A stretch of 64,000 bases of DNA, taken from positions 6,401,299 through 6,465,298 of the forward strand of contig NZ_JAGKQQ010000001.1 of NCBI RefSeq assembly GCF_017939745.1, written 5' to 3'. The stretch comes from Gemmata palustris (GTDB lineage: Bacteria; Planctomycetota; Planctomycetia; Gemmatales; Gemmataceae). The position numbers and the translations under genes are program-made. The notes under the pieces are model-generated. The model was given only the letters and a program-made list of their open reading frames with translations, did not search any database and was not told the origin of the DNA. The number at the start of each line of letters is the position of its first letter. Positions within the stretch are counted from its first letter, which is position 1. Below, in pieces: positions 31,112 through 32,921 of the stretch.

Positions 31112-32146
31112 TCAACCGATCACGGGTTGTCGCTCGGCGATGAGCAGCCGCGTGAGCCACTCTTGCAGGAACGCAGCGCGCGTCCGGGCCGCGCCTTCTG
31201 CTTCGTCGGATGACACACGCACGAACCGAATGCGGTCGTTTGGGCGGAGTTGGGCGAGTAGGTCGAGATCGGCGCGAATTACGTGTGCGATCTTCGGGTA
31301 CCCGCCAATGGTCTGACCGTCCACGCCGAGAACGATGGGCAACCCGTCGTTGGTGACTTGCACGGCTCCCGGGGCGACCGCCTCCGAAACGAGTTCGCCC
31401 GGCACGCGCGCGAGGGGCGCTCCTTTCAGGCGAAGGCCCATGCGGTTGCTCGCCGCCGATACTGCGTAGTCTTGTGCGAAGAAGGTATCGTCGGTGAACC
31501 AGCCGCGTTGCGGGCCATCAAGGACGCGGATTGGCAGACCTACCCCCCCGTCCCCCCTCCCTGAAGGGAAGGGGGAGAAAACTACCCGCTCGTTAACACT
31601 CGCGGTTCGCCCAGAGATGTCCGACACCTGCTCCCCCTTCCCTTCAGGGAGGGGGGACGGGGGGGTAGGTATCGCTTCACAGAACGGCAAACTGCGCGAC
31701 TCCGTGCGGCTCACCGCGCATCGAAGCACGTCGTCCACTCGAATCGGTTCGAGCGCTGATCGGCTGCCGAGAACTTCTGGCGCCTCGAAGCCCCCGGCGA
31801 CACACAAGTACGCTCGCGCGCCGGTGAGCGTTCCGCCCACGCGGAGCACGTCGCCCGGTTCGAGCGTGAACGTCGTGCCGGGCACCAGCGGGTTTCCGTT
31901 CAAGGTGCTCTGAAACGGCGCGCCGAAGATCACGCACGCAATCGAGTGAAGTGCCTCAACTACTGGCCCCGCAAACGCGACTTCGAGCGCGACCGCGTGA
32001 GGGGCGTTGCCTATAAGTGCGTTGCCCAAGGCGAGTGCCGCGCGGTCCGCCGCACCGCCCACGGGTACGCCGAGTGCCCGGCTGCGTTCACGGCCGAAAT
32101 CGACGAGCAGCGATTGCAACCCGGCTTCGCGAACGATCAGGCTCAT
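31112..32146 (-). CDS. pxpC: 5-oxoprolinase subunit C (biotin-dependent carboxylase-like), with in-frame repeat insertion
   Basis: 344 residues. PxpC with PxpB and PxpA cleaves 5-oxoproline to glutamate using ATP. Family segments: LQSLLVDFGRERSRALGVPV, ALALGNALIGNAPHAVALEV, GGFEAPEVLGSRS, then IRVLDGPQRGWFTDDTFFAQ and DYAVSAASNRMGLRLKGAPL, and near the end VTNDGLPIVLGVDGQTIGGY. Between them residues ~159-203 are foreign: PTPPSPLPEGKGE to FSPFPSGRGDGGVG, encoded by a 133-bp perfect inverted repeat (31538-31670). The insertion keeps the frame and falls in a linker, so the enzyme may still be active. pxpA lies upstream; pxpB is not in the window. Confidence 0.88.
   Translation of the reverse strand: MSLIVREAGLQSLLVDFGRERSRALGVPVGGAADRAALALGNALIGNAPHAVALEVAFAGPVVEALHSIACVIFGAPFQSTLNGNPLVPGTTFTLEPGDVLRVGGTLTGARAYLCVAGGFEAPEVLGSRSALEPIRVDDVLRCAVSRTESRSLPFCEAIPTPPSPLPEGKGEQVSDISGRTASVNERVVFSPFPSGRGDGGVGLPIRVLDGPQRGWFTDDTFFAQDYAVSAASNRMGLRLKGAPLARVPGELVSEAVAPGAVQVTNDGLPIVLGVDGQTIGGYPKIAHVIRADLDLLAQLRPNDRIRFVRVSSDEAEGAARTRAAFLQEWLTRLLIAERQPVIG
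31538..31670. repeat. Palindromic element inserted in frame in pxpC (40-bp perfect arms)
   Basis: 31538-31577 is the exact reverse complement of 31631-31670; the arms contain CTCCCTGAAGGGAAGGGGGA. The 53-nt spacer carries a further repeat (31582-31611). The whole stretch is translated in the pxpC frame without a stop codon, comparable in principle to the palindromic elements described inside Rickettsia genes. Confidence 0.9.
31582..31611. repeat. Palindromic repeat, family copy 3 (single arm, nested)
   Basis: This 30-bp sequence (starting CTACCCGCTCGTT, ending CGGTTCGCC) matches the arm at 10438 and the copy at 21666 with few changes. It lies in the spacer of the larger palindrome, so the two repeats have been combined: nested insertion or a composite element. 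Confidence 0.75.
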
Positions 32147-32149
32147 AAT

Positions 32150-32219
32150 CCTGGGATCGCGGGCGTCTCGCCCGCTTTTTGGATGAGGGGGAAGCGGGCA
32201 AGATGCCCGCGGTCCCAGG
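32150..32219. repeat. Palindromic element between pxpA and pxpC
   Basis: The halves CTGGGATCGCGGGCGTCTCG (32151 on) and CGGGCAAGATGCCCGCGGTC (32195 on, ending CCCAG) are imperfect inverted copies of about 28 bp around a short loop. The unit has small inner hairpins (GCGGGC / GCCCGC). It lies in the short gap between two genes of one operon and could affect expression of pxpC. One copy in the window. Confidence 0.7.
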
Positions 32220-32225
32220 GAAAAC

Positions 32226-32921
32226 TCACGCGAACGCTTTGAGCGTGAACCCGCGCTTCAGAAGGGCCGCGCGAACCGCTTTCGTGAACGCGACCGCGTC
32301 CGGGTTGTCGCCGTGAACGCAGATCGTCCGCACGCCCTTTTCGCGCACCAGCCACTCGATTTGCTTCACGGCTTCATCGGGATCGTGAACGAATGCGTTC
32401 GGCTCTGTTCGCGGTACGAGCGATCCGTCCGGGCGGTAACGGCGGTCCGCGAAGCCTTCCGCGAAGAACGGAACGCGGTCTGTGGCCTCGGCTTCGAGCC
32501 AGGATTGAGGGAGCCCAATGACCGGAAGCTCGAACACTTTGGCGGCATCGATCACACCAACGGCCACGTTCTCGTCGCGGCACGCTTGATTGTAGAGGGC
32601 ACCGTGCGGCTTGACGTAGCGCACCTCTGCGTCACACGCTTTTGCCAACCCCATCAGTGCGCCGAGCTGGTACAGGCACCCGTGCGCGATCTCGCCCGAA
32701 GTTAGATCGAGTTCGCGCCGGCCGAAGTGTTCGCGGTCCGCGTACCCGGGGTGCGCGCCGATCGTGACTCCGAACTGTTTCGCGAGCGCCAGTGTGGACG
32801 CGATCTCGTTCGGTCCGCCGGCGTGCGCACCGCAGCACACGTTCGCGGACGTGATGAGCGGCATCAGCTCGGCGTCAAAGCCGGCGCCCTCGCCGAGATC
32901 CGCGTTCAGGTCGATTTCCAT
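32226..32921 (-). CDS. pxpA: 5-oxoprolinase subunit A (LamB/YcsF family)
   Basis: 231 residues, close to the usual length. Typical segments: MEIDLNADLGEGAGFDAELM (start motif DLNxDxGE), LITSANVCCGAHAGGPNEIA, GVTIGAHPGYADREHFGRRE, VRYVKPHGALYNQACRDENV and VRTICVHGDNPDAVAFTKAV. PxpA is the lactam-hydrolysing partner of PxpBC in cleavage of 5-oxoproline, a damage product of glutamine. The start ATG is only 13 bp from the stop of uppP, and pxpC follows, so the three are likely co-transcribed. Confidence 0.95.
   Translation of the reverse strand: MEIDLNADLGEGAGFDAELMPLITSANVCCGAHAGGPNEIASTLALAKQFGVTIGAHPGYADREHFGRRELDLTSGEIAHGCLYQLGALMGLAKACDAEVRYVKPHGALYNQACRDENVAVGVIDAAKVFELPVIGLPQSWLEAEATDRVPFFAEGFADRRYRPDGSLVPRTEPNAFVHDPDEAVKQIEWLVREKGVRTICVHGDNPDAVAFTKAVRAALLKRGFTLKAFA

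Follow-up and report, generated by a model that had tools for sequence, protein, structure and literature searches.

The perfect palindrome in the pxpC gene of Gemmata palustris is one member of a dispersed palindromic family, which we designated family A. This family is very probably a small dispersed element residing for the most part within the protein-coding genes of Gemmata-type planctomycetes. Protein-coding palindromes are best known from Rickettsia and Wolbachia, and, judged from sequence, the Gemmata elements are a planctomycete counterpart of the Rickettsia palindromic elements (RPEs), with more than one family, a stronger residence in genes, and turnover at shared sites. The palindrome was found in a stretch of 64,000 nucleotides of the G. 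palustris genome, hereafter the window; the features of the locus are listed in Table 1.

Table 1. Features of the pxpC locus (positions are those of the window)
Feature	Position	Strand	Basis or remark
Family-A palindromic element, 133 bp	31538..31670	-	In-frame PxpC residues 160-203
40-nt arm, right in gene sense	31538..31577	.	Inverted-repeat detection
Other 40-nt arm, left in gene sense	31631..31670	.	Inverted-repeat detection
53-nt spacer, contains CGCTCGTTAACACTCGCGG	31578..31630	.	CGCTCGTTAACACTCGCGG is a motif of a different repeat family
Host gene pxpC (5-oxoprolinase subunit C), 344 aa	31112..32146	-	ORF, Pfam, and NCBIfam
pxpA (5-oxoprolinase subunit A), adjoins pxpC	32226..32921	-	ORF, Pfam, and NCBIfam

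The Pfam family CT_A_B (PF02626) spans residues 25-309 of the pxpC product, and a pxpB-type gene is present elsewhere in the same genome, away from pxpC and pxpA. In agreement with the original prediction, the two arms of the palindrome are exactly (100%) complementary, and the element is open in the pxpC frame, in which it encodes 44 stop-free residues (PTPPSPLPEGKGE...SPFPSGRGDGGVG). The prediction had also stated that the element is translated. The maintenance of a stop-free frame was confirmed, and translation itself is deduced from the frame constraint described below. The single-stranded RNA of the element had a folding energy of −116.2 kcal/mol, compared with −70.6 ± 5.0 kcal/mol for 200 shuffled sequences (z = −9.1), and the family-A arm motif, with up to two mismatches, had 64 matches in the genome, compared with none for the same motif read backwards. 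It is therefore apparent that the palindrome is beyond chance.

A cmscan search against Rfam gave nine matches for the element, mostly to microRNA precursors and none near the gathering score, and an assignment to a known RNA family was rejected. A long hairpin may draw matches to microRNA-precursor models. The gap between pxpC and pxpA (32148-32222) also contains a hairpin-like stretch with sub-threshold matches to microRNA models, where the repeat search gave no arm pair at the settings used. In addition, a second, mostly non-coding repeat is represented by its motif in the spacer of the pxpC element, which gives the impression of a repeat trapped within a repeat; this motif is in frame at 4 of its 29 matches.

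In the AlphaFold2 model of PxpC, the block means were 42-53 over residues 161-200, a low-confidence loop, and outside residues 151-200 all blocks were at least 83 except residues 21-30 (65) and 251-260 (75). The best fold match of the model was E. coli YbgJK (5dud; TM 0.87 by target length). The insert is thus modeled as a disordered, exposed loop on an intact PxpC fold.

A BLAST search of the own genome (9.23 Mb, three contigs) with the pxpC element gave 129 matches; in a first look at BLAST matches, 40 of 170 candidates were scored. Element matches were present in 19 of 59 genomes, 15 of which, the own genome included, belong to the same genus. Family-A copies are 122-136 nt long, with longer composites in addition. 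When complete copies were aligned, they shared the ends ACCTAC...GTAGGT (with some losses), C-rich and G-rich arms, and a variable spacer; the element thus has the terminal inverted repeats of a MITE. The arm-to-arm distance was 69, 72, or 75 in 16 of the 17 complete pairs and 73 in the other. Two copies at unrelated places, one in a polynucleotide kinase-phosphatase gene and the other, on visual inspection, between two genes, had spacers one edit apart, compared with a median of 23 over 120 pairs, which suggests recent copying of family A. A de novo inverted-repeat census of a contiguous 400 kb yielded one A-like unit, which did not suffice to estimate a separate rate.

The coding context of the copies was determined with a home-made dicodon score trained on long ORFs from 1.264 Mb of the genome. 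A site was regarded as in frame when both 300-nt flanks scored best in one frame that was open through the element, and the place census and the random and RAYT controls were both scored with the best of four flank offsets. In the own genome, 29 of the 41 family-A places are in coding sequence and stop-free, and all 29 are in one phase, as expected from the predicted common frame of in-gene copies. The other 12 places comprise six at gene edges or in intergenic regions, four with flanks on the same strand in another frame, one with flanks on opposite strands, and one in the same frame with a stop; the matches at C1:5782815 and C1:6814079 lie outside the place census. When copies were counted by arm motif, 41 of 64 were in frame, every one of them in phase 1, on either strand. 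A second family, family B, was identified genome-wide via its own hairpins. Thirty of its 40 places, taken from the best 60 of 120 matches, are in frame in genes, most with one peptide per orientation. By motif, 14 of the 15 in-frame family-B matches are in a common phase and one is in another; at C1:1681152, one hairpin is read in a different frame.

Random 130-nt spans scored by the same rule were in frame at fractions of 0.531 (contiguous 400 kb) and 0.508 (other windows), and random 17-nt sites at 0.59-0.60. Random entry followed by purging of two of the three phases would give an expected in-frame fraction of approximately 0.32. The combined value for families A and B was 59 of 81 (p = 6e-14 against 0.32 and p = 0.007 against 0.59; element copies are related rather than independent, and these p values are to be taken with caution). 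The result was replicated in relatives with copies picked by DNA similarity alone, of which 11 of 14 in G008, 5 of 6 in G016, and 4 of 6 in G002 were in frame.

Of the 11 in-frame family-A copies, none had a stop in the peptide frame, whereas 10 and 11 of them had one in the other two frames; for the spacer alone, the corresponding numbers of copies were 0, 5, and 6. One of the eight copies not in frame had a stop in the peptide frame. The length of the intact unit was 1 mod 3 in 12 of 12 in-frame copies versus 5 of 9 others (p = 0.021). From this frame constraint we infer that the in-gene copies are read as protein. The perfect 40-bp stem and its energy of −116 kcal/mol would also suit a role at the RNA level, either as an mRNA hairpin (regulation, RNase III) or as a stretch that is skipped or cut out on the way to the finished protein. 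However, a removed stretch needs neither a stop-free frame nor a length of 1 mod 3; in-gene copies are stop-free in the peptide frame while their other frames are closed, and in-frame units keep that length. An RNA-level role in place of translation is therefore highly improbable. Reading of the copies as protein is preferred, and the hairpin may have a regulatory role alongside translation.

The two inverted hairpin arms and the GTAG near the outer ends of family A are reminiscent of REPIN/BIME-type elements, whose movement by a RAYT (Y1 tyrosine transposase) would have brought them into genes by chance, and the genome does encode three RAYT-type (Y1_Tnp) genes (L058, C1:4267594; L059, C1:3636373; L060, C1:4313822). 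However, each of the three adjoins palindromes of its own kind, not of family A or B, and all three were rejected as the partner of these families. When scored in windows of the own genome, the RAYT-linked palindromes were in frame in genes at 3 of 54 matches for L060, 0 of 15 and 1 of 32 for the two motifs of L058, and 1 of 3 for L059. Moreover, family B ends in GTTAGG. Movement by a RAYT is consequently an improbable explanation, and an element residing mainly in genes remains our reading of families A and B.

A search for a transposase gene between family-A ends in 1.26 Mb of the 9.2-Mb genome gave one pair of ends, 1.1 kb apart, whose enclosed gene (L160:9179-10278; C1:1138179-1139278) was not recognizable as a transposase by eye. 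Of the two family-A elements that bound this gene, the upstream one is readable as an in-frame N-terminal extension. No target-site duplication was found in the flanks of 16 copies or at shared sites, where a clean empty allele was absent.

The anticipated recurrence of the peptide in other proteins was observed in many proteins of the own genome and of relatives. According to Pfam and NCBIfam, the hosts include MnmE, RsmB, a NifS-like cysteine desulfurase, Kdo transferase, aldehyde dehydrogenase, penicillin amidase, a UPF0261 protein, a sulfatase, and an E2 acyltransferase with the element in its linker. The polynucleotide kinase-phosphatase (L171:8865-11630) contains two family-A elements at different sites in a single 922-aa frame. 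Separately, a 2269-aa ORF (L149:5114-11920) contains two element places. A Pfam scan of 20 host proteins left one without any family. Among nine hosts examined with NCBIfam, PxpC, MnmE, Kdo transferase, the NifS-like protein, and E2 fell below the cut-off of the specific model and the other four did not; in-gene elements may thus touch annotation.

Among 85 distinct PxpC homologues with both flanks, 12 carry a palindrome in the loop (arms of at least 10 nt). Ten of these are in frame, and the two out-of-frame cases are both MAGs. Among the 73 homologues without a palindrome, the frame is broken in none, and 47 have loops of at most 36 nt. Empty sites, which the original prediction called for, are therefore present; in the pxpC gene of G015, the flanking blocks are 83% and 82% identical, and the loop is 24 nt long. 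Because these 47 homologues hold at most 12 residues at the loop, the possibility that the peptide is the normal PxpC loop was rejected. Likewise, the same residues were seen in none of the palindrome-free homologues. The out-of-frame loci L070 and L067, absent from one protein alignment, are included in these counts.

The PxpC loop is occupied by family A in the window genome, by family A with a nested second palindrome in G010, and by family B in G008. Further palindromes are present in the loop of G001, G003, G004, G007, and G016, and the loop is empty in G015 and G011. The original prediction can thus be refined: several palindrome families have entered the same PxpC loop. The alignment comprised 38 sequences, namely the window and 37 of 80 loci (L249, which has a stop, L244, L246, and L254 were dropped, and L200 is cut at a contig end), and the PxpC tree was built from 36 hand-chosen rows. 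In this tree, G008 and G010 are joined (100/99) and are then joined by the window genome (98/98). Since the group of G008 and G010 adjoins the window genome, family A was probably the earlier occupant, later overwritten in G008. Outside that genus group, L184, L187, L191, and L199 also carry loop palindromes among empty rows.

Thirteen element positions, taken from 28 that had been preselected as in frame, were compared across five relatives (G008, G010, G016, G002, and G014). G008, G010, and G016 usually had an insert of like style at the corresponding site, frequently a composite or from a different family, and in G002 and G014 the sites were more often short or insert-free. The flank-to-flank gap was a multiple of three at 13 of 13 sites in G008, 12 of 13 in G016 (frame broken at the remaining one), 13 of 13 in G002, and 10 of 10 in G014. 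In G010, it was a multiple of three at 5 of 13 sites, two of which contain stops. The G010 assembly is a draft with N in four gaps, and its frame is broken at 8 of 13 sites (for example, L295, L298, L301, L304, L310, and L323). Either the long C/G runs contain sequencing errors or the frames have truly decayed, and true decay would count against the coding reading.

The persistence of inserts at shared sites across species and their frequent position in a loop or between domains of the host proteins would be compatible with retention for useful work as linkers or loops. On the other hand, closely related species can carry different families at one site, and in G008 sites 5515269 and 8208134 have lost the element or keep just a remnant of it. 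Such changing or lost content fits tolerance better than function, and there is little likelihood that usefulness explains the inserts. At the site of the short family-A copy C1:8208134, the UPF0261 gene of G016 (L311) has a long palindrome that is rich in GCGCGGA-type repeats and is bounded by A-like ends.

The outer ends are alike across families and lie at almost the same nucleotide in several species, as would be seen if the different occupants of one site were a single ancient insert that had diverged or been gene-converted with no new insertion. Nested and composite arrangements, in which remnants of one family flank another, argue against this, as do the PxpC-loop palindromes on separate tree branches between empty ones. 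We regard a single ancient insert as rather unlikely, and prefer repeated insertion into tolerated sites. Eight of the 40 family-B places are within 200 bp of a family-A arm, compared with an expected fraction of 0.0024.

Based on these observations, the following course of events is proposed. An element would have entered the exposed PxpC loop in an ancestor shared by G008, G010, and the window genome, and would be transcribed and translated as a disordered, Pro/Gly-rich stretch of approximately 44 residues. From then on, selection acting on the host gene would have permitted mainly changes that keep the frame. Once occupied, the site would tolerate the arrival of further elements, and the family present there would be replaced over time. 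In 16 family-A copies hand-picked as complete, the mean edit distance between arms was 3.0 within a copy versus 4.4 between copies, with 1 of 5000 permutations as low, and 4 of the 16 had a copy-specific inverted (not direct) extension of 6-7 nt past the ends. Hairpin-templated correction, which probably keeps the arms of a copy alike, could yield both features. A bolder proposal, to which we give somewhat less than an even chance, is that these palindromes are a mobile class specialized for coding DNA. Such a class would have one phase in either orientation and a frame-neutral length, would be found in genes above the random level, and would spread chiefly into occupied sites; each host-protein loop would act as a refuge in which the occupant is exchanged from species to species.

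RPEs and their Wolbachia counterparts (WPEs) are described as palindromes of approximately 100-150 bp found in frame in genes of unrelated function and in exposed regions (PMC3767692, PMC10969869, PMC2229807). RPEs occupy shared sites in related species, and in some cases one locus holds RPEs of different groups; the authors of the R. japonica study left undecided whether this reflects a hotspot or divergence (PMC3767692). The Gemmata palindromes are likewise dispersed, approximately 100-150 bp long, in frame in unrelated genes, and at shared sites; the insert also lies in an exposed protein region, here in PxpC only and according to the model. In contrast, they come from another phylum, have C-rich arms and probably other sequences, and are likened to RPEs by kind, not as members of the Rickettsia families proper. 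In R. conorii, nearly half of 44 RPEs are described as lying within ORFs (PMC10969869), whereas 29 of 41 (A) and 30 of 40 (B) places do so here; by the same counts, both families also differ from the largely extragenic REPIN/RAYT elements.

Intragenic GTAG/CGTC REPs of Opitutus terrae and R. conorii are described as palindromic dimers that lie wholly inside ORFs and code for 20-30 and up to 82 residues (PMC3733652). In the available text of that paper, REPs are mostly intergenic, Planctomycetes are mentioned just as carriers of such repeats, and the word Gemmata does not occur (PMC3733652). Unlike those REPs, most places of families A and B are in genes, and the families do not lie beside the RAYT-type genes found. 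MITEs with open frames (ERIC/RU-1, RU-2, and the 107-bp Correia element) are, as far as described in PMC2229807, small inverted repeats sometimes fused in frame; unlike the Gemmata elements, they are primarily intergenic, and target duplications are known for several. In the mitochondria of Nematomorpha, long perfect inverted repeats within coding sequence are described in which both arms encode conserved residues (PMC6649704), whereas the Gemmata arms are an insert missing from most PxpC homologues. PARCELs are coding DNA with dyad symmetry and are thought to be mobile but, unlike the Gemmata elements, are described as tandem 25-residue repeats in proteins without assigned function (PMC2996958). 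In the open-access literature, which lacks most subscription papers, no earlier description of palindromes inside genes was found for Gemmata or other Planctomycetes. What is new is chiefly that the palindromes reside in genes across the genome and that families are exchanged at shared sites.

The Gemmata palindromes provide a second and rich case, from bacteria whose genomes measure 5-10 Mb, and thereby make standing questions testable. One is whether such elements enter genes by choice or only persist in them; others are whether an occupied loop is used again and at what rate core enzymes (here MnmE, RsmB, a NifS-like enzyme, Kdo transferase, PxpC, and others) gain loops from selfish DNA.
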